A program made the position numbers and the translations under genes. From a virus: a DNA stretch of 45,505 nt. Shown piece after piece: positions 13,116 through 19,729 of the stretch. Within the stretch, counting starts at the first letter, position 1. Each line of letters opens with the position of its first letter. Below the pieces are notes generated by a model, which was not told where the DNA came from, searched no databases, and saw nothing but the letters and a program-made list of their open reading frames with translations. The stretch is taken from IMG/VR virus record IMGVR_UViG_3300025127_007848, positions 1-45,505 of that record, one strand, 5' to 3'.

Positions 13116-13831
13116 GTAATAAAAAAACAAGCGTGAATCTAATCACATGCGACAGACCTCACTTGGCGATGCAAGCGGTTACAACCCTTTACGAGACAAC
13201 CAAACATTTAAATGTTGAACTTGTTATGGTTGTTGACGGCGATGATAAAACAGTTCATGATGTAAACAAATTTTTAGAAGACAAACTGAGCGACACATGG
13301 AGTTGTATTATAGACTACTCCCCCCAAAGACGAGGAGCCTTGTGGTCGTGGAACCATGGATTGTCGTTAACAACGGGGGATATTCTTTTTCCATCGGGCG
13401 ACGACCAACTTTTTCATCCGAACTGGCTAGATCTAGCACTAGAGTGCCACGAAAAACATTTAGATGGATATGGGATGGTCGCTGTAAATGATTTGTTTTG
13501 GGATGGGAATGTCTTAGGAACAACCATGCTTGTTGATAGAGAATTTTGTATTGATCATCTGGGAGGGACATGGGCTTACCCTGAATATAATTATTTTTAT
13601 ATCGATAACGAGTTAAACGAACGTGCGAAATTGGCGGGACGATATGTGTGGTGTCCAGAATCAATAGTTGAACACTTTCACCCGTGTCGAGGAAAAAGAC
13701 CTCGTGATATGCATGATGAAGAAAGAGATGCACAAGATTTTGGGAGAATTGATAAACAGATTTTTGAAAGAAGAAAGGCTGCTGGCTTTCCAAACAACTT
13801 TGAACCCGCAATCAAGCGAGAGACAAAATGA
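13112..13831 (+). CDS. Glycosyltransferase, GT-A fold (GT2-like)
   Basis: This is a 239-residue protein. I chose the GTG at 13112, which overlaps the previous TGA and has GGAG about eight bases upstream, over an in-frame ATG at 13055 inside the epimerase gene. It reads SVNLITCDRPHLAMQAVTTL, then VMVVDGDDKT, then GDILFPSGDDQLFHPNW, which holds the acidic metal/nucleotide-sugar site of GT-A enzymes. VEHFHPCRGKRPRD near the end resembles the C-terminal His region of such folds. There is no membrane segment. From here to about 18.2 kb the DNA looks richer in G+C than its flanks. Confidence 0.8.
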   Translation: MSNKKTSVNLITCDRPHLAMQAVTTLYETTKHLNVELVMVVDGDDKTVHDVNKFLEDKLSDTWSCIIDYSPQRRGALWSWNHGLSLTTGDILFPSGDDQLFHPNWLDLALECHEKHLDGYGMVAVNDLFWDGNVLGTTMLVDREFCIDHLGGTWAYPEYNYFYIDNELNERAKLAGRYVWCPESIVEHFHPCRGKRPRDMHDEERDAQDFGRIDKQIFERRKAAGFPNNFEPAIKRETK

Positions 13832-14544
13832 GCAAATATAATCCATGGCCGCTAGGAAGCCTACCAGAAAATTTTAGACGTCCGGAAATTGACCTGTTGA
13901 AAGAAGCGGGATATGAGATTAATGACCCACGCGATGCCGTTACTTTGTTTGAAAATAAGATTGCAGCATATGCTGGTAGTAATTTCGCAGTCGCCGTGTC
14001 TAGTTGTACAGAGGCAATTTTTCTCTCTTTAAAATACTTAAAGGCAACAGAGCAAATCACTTTTCCGTCCCGAACATATGTTTCGGCACCGATGTCCGCC
14101 GTCAACGCCGGATGTGACATCAAATTTAAAGACTATGAATGGAGCGGCTTGTATTATTTAGAGCCGTACCCCGTCATTGATAGTGCCGTAAGGTTCACCA
14201 AAGATATGTATGAAAAAGGCTCTCTTCAGTGTCTATCATTTCAGATTAAAAAACGCTTGCCAATCGGCAAGGGCGGCATGATTTTGACAGATGATCCTGA
14301 AGCCAACCGCTGGCTAAGAGTTGCATCTTTTGAGGGTCGCCACCTTGAAGATCCATATGATAAAGATGAATTTGAACTTATAGGCTGGAATATGTATATG
14401 ACCCCGGAAGACGCTGCTCGTGGTATATTACTTTTTGATCAGCTTCCAGATGTAAATCCAGATGTATGTACTCATTTAGATTATCATGATTTAACTACAA
14501 AAAAACTTTTTAAATCTGGTGAGTATAAAGCCGAGCGATCTTAA
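13828..14544 (+). CDS. Short DegT/DnrJ/EryC1-type sugar aminotransferase
   Basis: This 238-residue protein matches the PLP domain of DegT-family sugar aminotransferases: VSSCTEAIFLSL (phosphate-binding turn), FPSRTYVSAPMSAVNAG, VIDSA with D118 facing the pyridine nitrogen, and SFQIKKRLPIGKGGMILTDD with K142 as the expected Schiff-base lysine. WNMYMTPEDAARGILLFDQL matches the helix after the large domain. Family members are usually about 370 residues; this one stops before the C-terminal small domain. It may be a natural short form, may need a partner, or may have lost activity. It would transfer an amino group to a keto-deoxysugar nucleotide, making the substrate for the formyltransferase downstream. 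Confidence 0.82.
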   Translation: MSKYNPWPLGSLPENFRRPEIDLLKEAGYEINDPRDAVTLFENKIAAYAGSNFAVAVSSCTEAIFLSLKYLKATEQITFPSRTYVSAPMSAVNAGCDIKFKDYEWSGLYYLEPYPVIDSAVRFTKDMYEKGSLQCLSFQIKKRLPIGKGGMILTDDPEANRWLRVASFEGRHLEDPYDKDEFELIGWNMYMTPEDAARGILLFDQLPDVNPDVCTHLDYHDLTTKKLFKSGEYKAERS

Positions 14545-14546
14545 AA

Positions 14547-15257
14547 ATGAGCAAAGATAGTAAAAAGACTTTATTCATAGGCTTCGAAGACTGTAATTAT
14601 TGCAAGTTAGCTTATGAATTTTTGATTGTGTGCGGCTTTGATGTTACGTGTTTGTGGGCATCAAAGAAAAGAAGAGACAAGCTACCGAAAGAACTAAAGA
14701 ATTGGTCGGGTGATTATCTTTTTCATATGAAATCATACTATATCCTTCCTAAATCGCTTTTGGATGGCGTAAAAATTGCGGCATTAAACTTTCACCCCTC
14801 TTCGCCAAATTATCCCGGTTCTGGCTGTTTAAATTGGGCATTATACAATAACGAAGATAAGACAGGTATCACTGTTCATCGTTTAAATGAGAAAATAGAT
14901 AATGGACAAATAATAAAAACATATGATGTGCCTATTTTTGAAAACGACAATATAGAGACATTAATACCCAGAGTACATACGAAGCAGCTAGAGGCTTTTT
15001 ACGATATTGTAACGACTATAAGTCAAAACGACCCCGTAGTTTTAGATATTGCAGCAACCACCACCGCAAATAAAAATATAAAATGGGGTTCAAAAACTGG
15101 TAAAATAAAAGAGATCGATAAACTTCAATTGGTTGATACCGCCGTGAAGAAAGAAGAATTAGAAAAAATAATACGAGCAACATCCATCGGAAAGTTTGGA
15201 CCTAAATTAATGTTGCATGGTCATGAATTTAAATATGTAAAGGGAAAAATAGAATAA
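14547..15257 (+). CDS. Sugar N-formyltransferase (Fmt/ArnA-like)
   Basis: This 236-residue protein carries the formyltransferase active site: ALNFHPSSPNYPG with N81 and H83, and GITVHRLNEKIDNGQII with D118. These are the Asn-His-Asp set that uses N10-formyl-tetrahydrofolate. Its length fits the core of sugar N-formyltransferases (WlaRD/FdtC/QdtF type) and is shorter than tRNA-Met formyltransferase (about 310). Placement right after an aminotransferase points to N-formylation of an amino deoxysugar nucleotide. The C-terminus (from about 190) may form a small beta subdomain. No clear Shine-Dalgarno is seen; the start is 2 bases after the previous stop. Confidence 0.88.
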   Translation: MSKDSKKTLFIGFEDCNYCKLAYEFLIVCGFDVTCLWASKKRRDKLPKELKNWSGDYLFHMKSYYILPKSLLDGVKIAALNFHPSSPNYPGSGCLNWALYNNEDKTGITVHRLNEKIDNGQIIKTYDVPIFENDNIETLIPRVHTKQLEAFYDIVTTISQNDPVVLDIAATTTANKNIKWGSKTGKIKEIDKLQLVDTAVKKEELEKIIRATSIGKFGPKLMLHGHEFKYVKGKIE

Positions 15258-16195
15258 TGAAAAGAGTATTGATTTTAGGGGGAACAGGTTTTATTGGAAA
15301 AAATCTTTTTAACCGACTTAGAAAAGACGCCCAATATGATGTAGTGGCAGTATCGAAATCAACAGGTGTCGATATATTAGATTTCGACCAGATAGCAAAT
15401 TGTATTAAAGAGACTAAGCCAGATGTAGTGTTTAATGTGGCATCGCACGGCGGCGGGATTCATTATGTGAAAAAGTTTGCCGCTAGCGTACTCTCAGACA
15501 ATATACGAATGGCATTGAATCTTTATCAGGCGATCAGTTGTTGGGCACCAGAATGTAAAGTAATTCAGCCTTTTTCAAATTGCTCTTATCCCGGCGATAG
15601 TTCGGTACAAAACGAAGAAAACTGGCTTAATGGTGATGTGCACAATTCTATTTTTTCTTTTGGTAATTCAAAAAGGGCTATTTATTATATTTCAAAATGT
15701 TATCACGAACAATATGGAATAAAAACAGTTAACCTTTTACTTCCAAATACTTACGGACCCGGCGACTCTTGTGATCCCAATAAAACACATGCTTTAAATG
15801 GGATGGCAATTCGAATGCTTAAGGCTAAGAAAGTTGGTGATAAAGAATTTGTCGTTTGGGGTACTGGGTCGCCCATTCGTGAATGGGCTTATGTTGATGA
15901 TTTTATTGAAGCTATGGTATTAGCCATGGATATTGATCATATGGCGTATCCCCTGAATATTGCCCAAGAAAAGGGTTATTCAATTGCAGAATCAGCCGCG
16001 ATAATTAAGAAAGCGTGTGGCTTTGAGGGTACCATCGTTTTTGATACTCAATACGCAGATGGAGATCCGGTAAAAATCTTAGGGAAAAACAAGTTTAAAG
16101 AAATGTTTCCCAATTTTGAATTTTGTGATCACGAAGAGGGCGTCAAAAACACTATAAAATATTATGAAGATATTTTTGAAAAGGAAGAAAAATGA
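15257..16195 (+). CDS. GDP-fucose-synthase-like SDR with altered active site
   Basis: This 312-residue protein is an extended short-chain dehydrogenase: GGTGFIG binds NAD(P), and GGIHYVKKFAASVLSDN, SNCSYPGD and VVWGTGSPIREWAYVDD closely follow GDP-L-fucose synthase (WcaG). S107, C109, K139 and H178 sit where E. coli WcaG has S107, C109, K140 and H179. The catalytic Tyr of YxxxK (Tyr136 there) is Phe135 here (FGNSK). A second YxxxK-like string (YYISK) lies in the following helix and is not aligned. The enzyme may have lost the reductase step and kept epimerisation, or may use another acid. It overlaps both neighbours by a few bases. Confidence 0.88.
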   Translation: MKRVLILGGTGFIGKNLFNRLRKDAQYDVVAVSKSTGVDILDFDQIANCIKETKPDVVFNVASHGGGIHYVKKFAASVLSDNIRMALNLYQAISCWAPECKVIQPFSNCSYPGDSSVQNEENWLNGDVHNSIFSFGNSKRAIYYISKCYHEQYGIKTVNLLLPNTYGPGDSCDPNKTHALNGMAIRMLKAKKVGDKEFVVWGTGSPIREWAYVDDFIEAMVLAMDIDHMAYPLNIAQEKGYSIAESAAIIKKACGFEGTIVFDTQYADGDPVKILGKNKFKEMFPNFEFCDHEEGVKNTIKYYEDIFEKEEK

Positions 16196-17130
16196 AACGT
16201 ATATTGATCACCGGAGGTGCCGGTTATATTGGGACAACCTTGATTCCTATGTTATTAGAGAGAGATTGTGAGATCACAGTCTTGGATAATCTTATGTTTG
16301 ATAATGGGGATAAATTGTTACCATTTATTGTAAAAGAGAATTTTACTTTTATTAAGGGAGACATCAGAGATGCGAATCTTTTAGAGGAAGTCACAAAAGA
16401 CAAAGATATAATTATTCACCTTGCAGCTTACGTTGGTTTTCCGTTGTGCCGACTAAAAGGCGAAAAGGAATCGCACGATGTCAACACAAAAGCGACACAG
16501 GGGCTTGTAGACTGTTTGTCAGATGAACAATATTTATTGTTTGGTTCAACAGGATCAAACTATGGAGAGGTTGTCGGTCTTTGCACCGAAGAAACGCCGC
16601 TTAATCCTCTGTCAATCTACGGGAGAACAAAGACAGAAGCGGAGAGGGCGGTGATGAGCCGAGTTAATTCTACTGCTTTTAGATTCGCGACCGCCTTCGG
16701 CTCCTCCCCTCGAATGCGTTTAGATTTACTTGTAAACGATTTAACACACAAAGCAATGACGGAAGGTTATGCAGTTATCTACGAATCTCATTTCTTGAGG
16801 ACTTTTATTCATGTCAGAGATATCGCAAGATCTTTTATTTTTGCGATAGACAATCAAGAAAAAATGGCGTCGAACGTTTATAATGTTGGCTCCAACACAA
16901 TGAATTACACCAAGAAGCGTGTCTGCGAGATAATCAAAGAGAAGGTGTCCGATGCCTACTTTCACTATGCAGATATTAAAGAGGATGTGGACAAGAGAAA
17001 CTATCAAGTCTGTTATAAAAAAATTAATTCGCTTGGATACGAAGTTACGAACACTTTAGAAGAGGGTGTGGAAGAATTGAAATTGTCAATCCCTCTTATC
17101 AAGGAAGCTACAAAATATGGCAATGTTTAA
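16192..17130 (+). CDS. NAD-dependent sugar epimerase/dehydratase (SDR)
   Basis: This 312-residue protein starts with ILITGGAGYIG (NAD-binding Rossmann loop) and has LDNL, GDIRD, HLAAYVGFPLC, FGSTGSNYGE and an intact YGRTK (Y143, K147). FRFATAFG and RTFIHVRDIARSF complete the extended-SDR pattern. The C-terminal DKRNYQVCYKKINSLGYE is typical of sugar-nucleotide epimerases and dehydratases. The exact reaction cannot be told. It shares overall plan and several local motifs with the SDR at 17270-18217, so the pair probably arose by duplication or by recruitment of related genes. Confidence 0.88.
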   Translation: MKRILITGGAGYIGTTLIPMLLERDCEITVLDNLMFDNGDKLLPFIVKENFTFIKGDIRDANLLEEVTKDKDIIIHLAAYVGFPLCRLKGEKESHDVNTKATQGLVDCLSDEQYLLFGSTGSNYGEVVGLCTEETPLNPLSIYGRTKTEAERAVMSRVNSTAFRFATAFGSSPRMRLDLLVNDLTHKAMTEGYAVIYESHFLRTFIHVRDIARSFIFAIDNQEKMASNVYNVGSNTMNYTKKRVCEIIKEKVSDAYFHYADIKEDVDKRNYQVCYKKINSLGYEVTNTLEEGVEELKLSIPLIKEATKYGNV

Positions 17131-17269: not shown

Positions 17270-18217
17270 ATGACAAGAGAGCGAGTTTTAATTGTAGGTG
17301 GTGCAGGATATATCGGTGGTCATATGACGGATTGCCTTCACCACGCCGGATTCAGCGTTACAATATATGATAATCTTCTTTTCGAAAATCGATATATGAA
17401 GGAGGTTGATTTCGTTTATGGTGATATTCGCGACAAACGAAAGCTTTCAACCTTGCTTAAGAATCAAGATGTTGTGATATGGCTCGCTGGACTCGTGGGC
17501 GACGGTGCTTGTGCAGTGAATGCACCGCTCACTAGAGAATTAAATGTCGATTGCCCAAAGTGGCTGGTCGATAATTTTAATGGTAAAATTGTTTTTCCAT
17601 CAACGTGCTCAGTATATGGAATTAATAATGATTTAATTACAGAAGATGCAGAGCCGAACCCACTGTCTTTATACGCGGCAACAAAATTGGAAGCTGAACA
17701 ATATATTTTAAATAACGCCAAAGACCCTATGGTATTCCGTCTTGGAACACTCTATGGGCTTGGCGACCTGCATTCGCGAATTCGACTGGATCTGGTGGTC
17801 AATATCTTGTCCATGAGAGCAGCTAGGGGCGAACCTCTCACAGTCTTTGGTGGTGAGCAGTGGCGACCACTATTACATGTCCGTGACGCTGCAGAGGCTT
17901 TTGTTTTTAGTATTGAAAAAAACTTGTCCGGGCTTTACAACTTATCCCGAGAAAATTACCAAATTAAAGACTTGGCTCACGAGATTGCAAAGATCGTTCC
18001 CAACACCAACATTCAATATGTGGATATGAAGTTTGAAGATTTGAGAAACTATAAAGTGAATAATTCTCGCATCTTGAACACAGGTTGGGAATCAAAATAT
18101 TCTCTTGAATGCGGCATCAGCCAGATATATCAAATTATTGATACTAAAAGACTTAAAAATATTAACGATATAGTGTATTCTAATGCTAAGTATATGAGTT
18201 GGTTAGAGGAAACTTAA
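17270..18217 (+). CDS. NAD-dependent sugar epimerase/dehydratase (SDR)
   Basis: This 315-residue protein is preceded by AGGAGG. It contains VLIVGGAGYIGG (cofactor loop), YDNL, GDIRD, WLAGLVGDGAC, FPSTCSVYG, YAATK (Y135, K139), FRLGTLYG and RPLLHVRDAAEAF, then DLRNYKVNNSRILNTGW. All catalytic positions of an extended SDR are present. It is a paralogue in layout of the enzyme at 16192. Typical products would be a C4- or C2-epimerised sugar or a 4-keto sugar, but the substrate cannot be read from the sequence. Its stop overlaps the cupin start. Confidence 0.88.
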   Translation: MTRERVLIVGGAGYIGGHMTDCLHHAGFSVTIYDNLLFENRYMKEVDFVYGDIRDKRKLSTLLKNQDVVIWLAGLVGDGACAVNAPLTRELNVDCPKWLVDNFNGKIVFPSTCSVYGINNDLITEDAEPNPLSLYAATKLEAEQYILNNAKDPMVFRLGTLYGLGDLHSRIRLDLVVNILSMRAARGEPLTVFGGEQWRPLLHVRDAAEAFVFSIEKNLSGLYNLSRENYQIKDLAHEIAKIVPNTNIQYVDMKFEDLRNYKVNNSRILNTGWESKYSLECGISQIYQIIDTKRLKNINDIVYSNAKYMSWLEET

Positions 18218-18633
18218 TGAAAATTATGAATGGCGGCGTATTTGCCGATGATCGTGGAAAGCTGCGGTTTGTAAATGATTTTGACTTTTCAAAAGTCAAG
18301 AGATTTTATCAAGTTGAAAACCATAGACAGGGATTTATTCGTGCGTGGCACGGACATGTTCATGAGGGCAAATACGTTTATGTTGCTAGCGGCACAGCTT
18401 TAGTTGGTGCTGTACCTTTAGATGATAATAATGCAGAGCCAAAAAAGTTTATCATGACATCGGAAAAGCCTCAAGTTTTGTGGATTCCTCCAAACTATGC
18501 TAACGGATTTATGAATCTTGAAAAAGACACTATTATCTTATTTTTCTCAACTTCTACTTTAGAAGAGAGTAAAGGTGACGACATTAGATTTGCTTATGAT
18601 AAATGGAACATATGGGAAGAGGATTATCGGTAA
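18217..18633 (+). CDS. RmlC/FdtA-like cupin sugar epimerase/isomerase
   Basis: This is a 138-residue protein from the ATG at 18217, with AGAGGA seven bases upstream. The sequence VFADDRGKLRFVNDF, IRAWHGHVHEGKYVYVASGTALVGAV and VLWIPPNYANGFMNLEKDT follows the cupin core of dTDP-4-keto-sugar 3,5-epimerases. His residues are in the HGHVHEGK segment. RmlC is usually about 180 residues, so this is a compact member, closer in length to the FdtA/QdtA 3,4-ketoisomerases. Such an isomerase would make the 3-keto sugar that a DegT aminotransferase aminates, which fits the neighbourhood. Epimerase and isomerase cannot be separated by eye. Confidence 0.8.
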   Translation: MKIMNGGVFADDRGKLRFVNDFDFSKVKRFYQVENHRQGFIRAWHGHVHEGKYVYVASGTALVGAVPLDDNNAEPKKFIMTSEKPQVLWIPPNYANGFMNLEKDTIILFFSTSTLEESKGDDIRFAYDKWNIWEEDYR

Positions 18634-18923
18634 TGACGTTTAAAGAATATTATAATTATTATCTTACTTTACATCAAAATAAATGGACCCGAAGGTTACA
18701 CGTTTTAGGGCAAGTAGCAACTATTATTTTTGTTATAGCTTGTATTAAAAATAGTTTTTGGTTAGCACTCCCGCTCACTCCCTTTATCGTGTATCCATTT
18801 GCGTGGTCAGGACACTACTTTTTTGAAAAAAACAAACCGGCGGCTTTTAAAAATCCACTGTGGGCAAAAGCGTGTGATTGGGTTATGTTAAAAGATATAC
18901 TAATTGGAAGGATAAAATGGTAA
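18633..18923 (+). CDS. Mpo1/DUF962-like membrane protein
   Basis: This is a 96-residue protein from the ATG at 18633, which overlaps the previous stop (TAATG). The pattern YYLTLHQNKWTRRLHVLGQ, then two hydrophobic segments (about 24-38 and 42-57), then WSGHYFFEKNKPAAFKNPLW matches DUF962, the family of yeast Mpo1. His14, His23 and His61 are the likely conserved histidines. Mpo1 is an Fe(II)-dependent dioxygenase of 2-hydroxy fatty acid alpha-oxidation; bacterial members are common but little studied. In a phage it could alter host membrane lipids or a lipid-linked glycan carrier. The function here is inference; the family call is fairly strong. Confidence 0.82.
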   Translation: MTFKEYYNYYLTLHQNKWTRRLHVLGQVATIIFVIACIKNSFWLALPLTPFIVYPFAWSGHYFFEKNKPAAFKNPLWAKACDWVMLKDILIGRIKW

Positions 18924-19729
18924 AAGTTGTTATTTTAGGAAGTACAGGAATGCTTGGCAACGCAGTTACAAAAGAATTTTTAAGTGATGATTCTTATGAA
19001 GCATTTACATCTTATAGAAAAGAAAATCTTAAGTGGGATGAGAAGTCTTTTTATTTCAATGCAGGCGAAACATCATTTGATAAAATACCACGATGCGATT
19101 ATCTTATAAATTGTATTGGTATTATAAAACCATATATGAAAAAAGATTTAGAAAAAAACATCTATGTTAATTCTATTTTTCCTCATGCTCTTTCAAAGTA
19201 TTGTAAAGATAACAACATCAAGATGCTGCACATTACAACTGATTGTGTGTTTTCTGGAAAAGATGGCAAGTACACAGAAGAAAATTTTCACGACTGTTTA
19301 GACGCTTATGGGAAATCAAAATCACTAGGCGAAGTTGATTCTTCGATGACAATCCGCACTAGTATAATTGGGGAAGAAATCCACAGTAACGCTAGTTTAG
19401 TTGAGTGGGTTAAATCAATGAAGGGTAAAGAAATAAATGGTTTTACAAATCATTTATGGAATGGAGTCACTACAAAACAATATGGAATAATTTGTAAAAC
19501 AATTATAAAAAATGATCTATACGAGTCTGGGCTATTTCATGTCCATTCAGACGATGTAACAAAAATGGAGCTTGTATCGATTATTAATGATGTTTATAAT
19601 TTAAATATAAAAATTAGTCCTATGAAAACTAACATTTCATGTGATAGAAGATTGAGAACTGTAAAAAAATTAAATGAAAAACTTAATATTCCAAATTTAG
19701 AATACCAAATAAAACAAATGAGAGGTTAA
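18917..19729 (+). CDS. RmlD-like sugar-nucleotide reductase (SDR)
   Basis: This is a 270-residue protein from the ATG at 18917, with GGAAGGA upstream; a longer frame from 18878 lies inside the previous gene. It has VVILGSTGMLG (cofactor loop), CDYLINCIGIIKPY, NSIFPHALSKYC, LHITTDCVFSGKDGKY and YGKSK (Y131, K135). These are the signature of dTDP-4-dehydrorhamnose reductase relatives. NGFTNHLWNGVTTKQYG matches the substrate-side region of RmlD-type proteins. It probably reduces a 4-keto sugar nucleotide in the last step before transfer. It closes the glycan island. Confidence 0.87.
   Translation: MVKVVILGSTGMLGNAVTKEFLSDDSYEAFTSYRKENLKWDEKSFYFNAGETSFDKIPRCDYLINCIGIIKPYMKKDLEKNIYVNSIFPHALSKYCKDNNIKMLHITTDCVFSGKDGKYTEENFHDCLDAYGKSKSLGEVDSSMTIRTSIIGEEIHSNASLVEWVKSMKGKEINGFTNHLWNGVTTKQYGIICKTIIKNDLYESGLFHVHSDDVTKMELVSIINDVYNLNIKISPMKTNISCDRRLRTVKKLNEKLNIPNLEYQIKQMRG

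Follow-up and report, generated by a model that had tools for sequence, protein, structure and literature searches.

Genes at the locus

The stretch of DNA analysed, hereafter the window, is an IMG/VR fragment of 45,505 bases. The record carries PhoH, exonuclease, late sigma factor and baseplate wedge genes, which identifies it as part of a T4-like phage. Judging from this gene set and from the kind of samples, the phage is presumably marine. The features discussed here, all on the plus strand, are as follows.

13828-14544, plus strand: short DegT-type aminotransferase-like protein of 238 amino acids; the PLP Lys and Asp positions are kept, internal and C-terminal parts are missing
14547-15257, plus strand: sugar N-formyltransferase-like protein (Formyl_trans_N)
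15257-16195, plus strand: extended short-chain dehydrogenase/reductase (SDR) resembling GDP-L-fucose synthase (GFS); Cys109 and His178 retained, Phe in place of the catalytic Tyr at residue 135; a proposed epimerase acting at C3/C5 of a 4-keto nucleotide sugar
15659-15661, plus strand: codon TTT for Phe135, read from the sequence
16192-17130, plus strand: Cj1427-like C4-dehydrogenase with intact YxxxK (PDB 6vo6, E 6e-84; Foldseek); the conserved partner
17270-18217, plus strand: second Cj1427-like SDR (6vo6, E 2e-41), 37% identical to the 16192 protein
18214-18633, plus strand: RmlC/FdtA-like cupin; the listed ORF opens at TTG 18199, and 18214 is the start used in later searches
18917-19729, plus strand: RmlD-like reductase with intact YxxxK, in a separate unit; its pairing with the Phe protein is not conserved

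The ORF at 15257-16195 starts with ATG and encodes 312 amino acids. Its product scores 139.9 bits against the Pfam model of NAD-dependent epimerases (PF01370); among solved structures, GFS enzymes are the closest. The preliminary description had lined up Ser107, Cys109, Lys139 and His178 with E. coli WcaG. These positions are correct, and the WcaG numbering (Ser107, Cys109, Tyr136, Lys140, His179) agrees with PMC7949155. The Phe reported at the Tyr of the YxxxK motif, encoded by TTT, is confirmed as well: in alignment A1 this Tyr faces Phe135 in 10 of 10 GFS relatives, and HMMER alignments pair the human GFS Tyr with the same residue. Ser107, Lys139 and the Gly-rich cofactor motif are retained.

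An AlphaFold2 model of the protein has a mean pLDDT of 90.7, with lower confidence for residues 101-140 (about 70-87 by block). The fold, judged from the folds listed by VIA-align, is that of GFS, with Z 36.3 and an rmsd of 2.1 over 306 aligned residues for human GFS 4bl5_A, and Z 36.1 over about 305 residues for E. coli GFS 1e6u. At the level of this fold alignment to E. coli and human GFS, no Tyr substituting for position 135 was found.

The protein thus has the GFS fold (4bl5_A) and the Cys/His pair for epimerisation (Cys109, His178), while Phe135 interrupts the Ser/Thr-Tyr-Lys triad for reduction and no GDP-mannose 4,6-dehydratase gene adjoins it in the window. It scores 158 bits against the NCBIfam equivalog for GFS (NF047922), below the cut-off of 500. 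By the tests made (NCBIfam score, triad and partner), it is a variant of the GFS fold and not a GDP-L-fucose synthase. This corrects the automatic label, and such genes should not be named GDP-L-fucose synthase.

Distribution and history of Phe135

A single-protein search with the window protein returned no relatives in viral_contigs or genome_contigs, nor did a search with a Phe-specific pattern. A degenerate pattern recovered relatives on 15 viral and three bacterial contigs, and a profile search following the degenerate patterns gave 79 viral loci. Close bacterial relatives (E ≤ 1e-50) are rare: they were found in two of 392 genomes from L027's phylum (titled Spirochaetota) and in one of 400 from that of L029 (titled Chloroflexi). 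Contigs fetched earlier (L012-L025 and L026) recur among L030-L066 and were counted once, and L062 and L066 were dropped before site counts since they do not cover site 135. The resulting subfamily has 39 rows covering this site, including the window, of which 36 are different sequences (three pairs are identical). Identity to the window protein ranges from 39 to 70% among the other 38.

Phe is found at site 135 in 24 of the 39 rows and Tyr in 15. Phe is thus kept in close homologues, and a sequencing or single-sequence error, or chance, is ruled out. Codon 135 is TTT in 13 members of the window clade and TAT in one; in a second Phe clade it is TTT in seven and TTC in two. Close pairs are under strong purifying selection (for L031/L032, pN 0.010 and pS 0.276).

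A maximum-likelihood tree was built without site 135. The window belongs to a starred 14-row clade, with Phe in 13 rows and Tyr in one; this clade joins the second clade of nine Phe rows with support 92/91 (not starred), and the identical Phe rows L057 and L064 are placed among Tyr rows. Three changes at site 135 are required. Forcing all Phe rows into one clade was rejected (p-AU 1.6e-49), as was one clade of the main Phe rows without L063 (p-AU 1.7e-8), both constrained groups having been chosen after the tree was seen. Since both groupings fail, L063, which has TAT and is nested in a Phe clade, is best explained by reversion to Tyr. Together, the tree and the rejected single clades indicate that Phe is a stable clade trait, evidently gained on at least two occasions and reversed to Tyr once.

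Epimerisation pair and reduction triad

Cys109, His178 and Arg208 are invariant in all 39 subfamily rows. Ser107 is present in 36, Lys139 in 37 and Tyr135 in 15, and all three residues Ser107-Tyr135-Lys139 are intact in 13 of 39. Ser107 is replaced by Ala in L057/L064 and L058, and Lys139 by Arg in L027 and by Gln in L058. For comparison, 52 canonical GFS relatives (42 viral contigs and 10 phage and plasmid records) all have Tyr and Lys, Ser or Thr, and Cys, so that the Ser/Thr-Tyr-Lys triad is intact in 52/52; His is kept in 51/52. In the subfamily, the epimerisation pair is held constant and the reduction triad decays in several lineages. As a separate observation, the second Phe clade (L042-L050) and L057/L064, which are separate lineages, both have Phe138 together with Gly164 in place of a conserved Asn164.

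The constant Cys/His pair combined with the decaying triad favours an epimerase with a weak or unused reductase half. Data on human GFS (PMC12362431) point the same way. There, Cys116 and His186 perform both epimerisations, which proceed without NADPH, and Tyr143 donates the proton for reduction. In the Y143F variant kcat is about 100-fold lower and about 3% of activity is kept; hydride transfer becomes rate-limiting and epimerisation is less affected. These data support the view that a GFS-like protein lacking the Tyr would still epimerise but reduce poorly.

The partner gene and the neighbourhood

Directly downstream of the Phe protein lies the gene at 16192-17130. Its product matches 6vo6 (Cj1427) with E 6e-84, against 4e-25 for the next sequence. 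A Foldseek search with its model (pLDDT 81.7) also gives 6vo6 first, an entry whose title names Cj1427 (E 2e-36, 45% identity), and the next non-Cj1427 entry follows at E 5.7e-23. Cj1427 is therefore the closest solved structure by a wide margin. A homologue of the 16192 protein is found in 36 of 38 records, including the window (best match at least 41% identity). The two records lacking it are L060, whose contig ends right next to the gene, and L065, at 39% the most distant of the viral members.

Upstream, the 14547 protein has as its best solved relative 5vyr, a GDP-4-amino-4,6-dideoxymannose formyltransferase (E 2.7e-11). The short DegT protein before it is, from its missing parts, of doubtful activity. 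Short DegT proteins of about 200-240 amino acids, likewise truncated at the C-terminal end of the profile and missing an internal segment, but with the PLP Lys and Asp kept, recur in many related phage records.

Neighbours were counted with one ORF caller and one seed set for subfamily loci and for canonical GFS loci as the control, in flanks of at most about 8 kb, some of them cut at contig ends. The C4-dehydrogenase lies within seven genes in 39/41 subfamily loci versus 0/42 canonical loci and DegT in 38/41 versus 7/42 (within two genes, 32/41 versus 4/42), counts that are tilted towards the subfamily because the seeds for C4-dehydrogenase and DegT were taken from subfamily loci. The reverse is seen for GDP-mannose dehydratase, with 1/41 versus 39/42 loci within seven genes, and, counting the window, none of the 24 Phe loci has a dehydratase homologue in this range.

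Clade F2 has a full-length DegT immediately beside the GFS-like gene at nine of ten loci (L066, which does not cover the Phe site, being one of the ten). The order short DegT, formyltransferase, GFS-like gene is found at 10 loci of the window clade, counting the window. The formyltransferase is restricted to this clade (10/38 records) and is missing in its Phe members L033, L038 and L039. Elsewhere in the subfamily a hexapeptide transferase is seen, and a GNAT-like gene is present at two of three bacterial loci, both named by eye. In L033 and L063 the short DegT and a hexapeptide transferase flank a metallo-beta-lactamase-fold-like ORF of about 445 amino acids, also named by eye. The gene of an Mpo1-like protein (18603-18923 in the window) adjoins the module in the window clade and in the second Phe clade.

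A link of Phe to one type of neighbour was sought and not found, as DegT matches 36/37 records and the formyltransferase does not occur in all Phe members of the window clade. DegT lies within seven genes in 13/15 Tyr-type members and in 24/24 Phe members. The neighbourhood would mark the whole subfamily as acting before amination, the Tyr then being free to be lost. Since Tyr-type members have much the same neighbours, it explains why the Tyr could be lost, not why it was lost in these particular lineages.

Proposed function

We propose, with a probability of roughly 0.55, that the 15257-16195 protein is derived from GFS and epimerises, at C3 and/or C5, a 4-keto nucleotide sugar that is later aminated and N-formylated, reduction at C4 not being needed. 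The 4-keto sugar would be made by the 16192 Cj1427-like C4-dehydrogenase instead of a GDP-mannose 4,6-dehydratase. Cys109 as the base and His178 as the acid would epimerise C3 and/or C5 of this sugar, which is probably GDP-linked. The C4 ketone would be retained for the DegT aminotransferase, and the new amine would be N-formylated by the 14547 protein, giving a 4-formamido sugar for a surface glycan. If the ketone is aminated, NADPH hydride transfer is unneeded and the Tyr hydroxyl becomes dispensable; the change to Phe would also limit wasteful ketone reduction. The aminotransferase and acyltransferase neighbours thus suggest why reduction is unnecessary. As to the substrate, several of the loci L042-L050 have split HldE-like kinase and nucleotidyltransferase ORFs and a SIS-domain-like ORF near the Phe gene, which we take as a hint of a heptose.

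The preliminary description had suggested an epimerase without reductase activity. Its first half is supported, with the Cys/His pair present here and in all 39 rows. A loss of reduction agrees with the decay of the triad and with the slowed reduction in human Y143F, but Phe alone is no proof of it. Campylobacter jejuni MlghC is a GFS-like working C4 reductase with a natural Phe136 (PMC7949155), and this enzyme and the roughly 3% activity of Y143F show that Phe is compatible with some reduction.

Consequently, a complete epimerase and reductase that tolerates Phe has to be weighed, although we consider it rather improbable. Water or another group would donate the proton, and the protein would act in the manner of GFS on a heptose or hexose 4-ketone. 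Such an enzyme would be in line with MlghC, which has the same fold and reduces C4, with human Y143F, which still yields GDP-L-fucose at about 3%, with the retained Ser107, Lys139 and cofactor motif of the window protein, and with the return to Tyr in L063. However, the window protein has Cys where MlghC has a Tyr (Tyr 109) that points into the active site (PMC7949155); in MlghC the Cys/His pair is replaced. Moreover, S107A and K139Q/R are also found in the subfamily, and most loci have a DegT near the gene, often with an acyltransferase.

Less probable still is a division of the GDP-mannose 3,5-epimerase reaction over two proteins, which would do the job of one in plants. The Cj1427-like partner would oxidise C4, the window protein would epimerise C3/C5, and NADH bound tightly to the partner would reduce C4 again. 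The nearly obligate pairing (36/38 records) fits this idea, as does the tight binding of NADH by Cj1427 described in PMC10680097. According to the same source, however, Cj1427, which oxidises C4 of GDP-manno-heptose, passes the electrons to 2-oxoglutarate and gives a 4-keto sugar, and the DegT and acyltransferase neighbours would be left unexplained.

Reduction of the epimerised product by the RmlD-like protein at 18917-19729, as first suggested, is very unlikely: both genes lie in one cluster and the RmlD-like protein keeps YxxxK, but of the 40 related loci just two, L041 and L061, have a homologue of it; both are Tyr-type, and both also encode relatives of the 17270 SDR and of the RmlC-like cupin. 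The conserved partner is the 16192 C4-dehydrogenase. A count of partners by the RmlD Pfam model was set aside; all 38 of 38 records match, which is uninformative since the model also picks up other SDRs, the three in the window included. The RmlD-like gene is better placed in the 17270/cupin unit, since the homologues co-occur and the 17270 protein is a Cj1427 relative. In C. jejuni, oxidation by Cj1427 is followed by a separate C3/C5 epimerase (Cj1430) and then the C4 reductase Cj1428 (PMC10680097). The unit of 17270 SDR, cupin and RmlD resembles this route and may be a second one of its kind, with oxidation, epimerisation by the cupin and reduction.

Significance

Epimerisation and reduction are normally coupled in GFS, with the result that one reduced product leaves the enzyme. 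If the proposed epimerase is real, a natural and repeatedly evolved form without the reduction Tyr shows how the two halves of GFS separate. It would also be a tool for making epimerised 4-keto sugars, and the locus would represent an unmapped phage route to N-acylated 4-amino sugars. A wider picture is tentative, at a little under even odds. Marine T4-like phages may have turned GFS into a stand-alone 4-ketose epimerase through repeated loss of the triad. Placed between a ping-pong C4-dehydrogenase and a small aminotransferase, it may contribute to an undescribed GDP-sugar, 4-formamido (or 4-acylamido) and perhaps an amino-heptose, with which a surface glycan is remodelled. Pelagimyophages are reported to have many LPS-related genes in a hypervariable region (PMC7029224). 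No description of such a phage module was recognised in the open-licence PubMed Central literature, judged by titles and the starts of abstracts.

Comparison with known systems

Compared with GFS (GMER, WcaG; human Tyr143/Cys116/His186), the phage protein is alike in fold (Z about 36), length, Cys/His pair, Ser and Lys positions and cofactor motif. It differs in having Phe at the Tyr, in adjoining a C4-dehydrogenase instead of a GDP-mannose 4,6-dehydratase gene, and in its score (158 of 500 bits). With the GDP-heptose C4 reductases MlghC and Cj1428 it has in common the GFS fold, the natural Phe and Ser107 and Lys139 (Phe136 and Ser107/Lys140 in MlghC). These reductases act after a Cj1427-type C4-dehydrogenase, and the phage gene adjoins a Cj1427-like gene. 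However, MlghC has Tyr/Arg for Cys/His and no epimerase activity, whereas the phage protein keeps Cys109 and His178, which sets it apart from this group. The 16192 protein is 45% identical to Cj1427 and keeps YxxxK; the use of 2-oxoglutarate is known for Cj1427, the phage protein being compared by sequence and model.

The extended SDR fold and Cys-based C3/C5 epimerisation are held in common with GDP-mannose 3,5-epimerase, which oxidises and re-reduces C4 in one protein, using its Tyr. In the PseB/PseC/PseH logic of pseudaminic acid, an epimerised 4-keto sugar passes to a DegT aminotransferase and is then N-acylated, PseB being a UDP-GlcNAc 4,6-dehydratase. The phage module would follow the same order of epimerisation, amination and acylation, but with no dehydratase homologue seen beside the phage gene.
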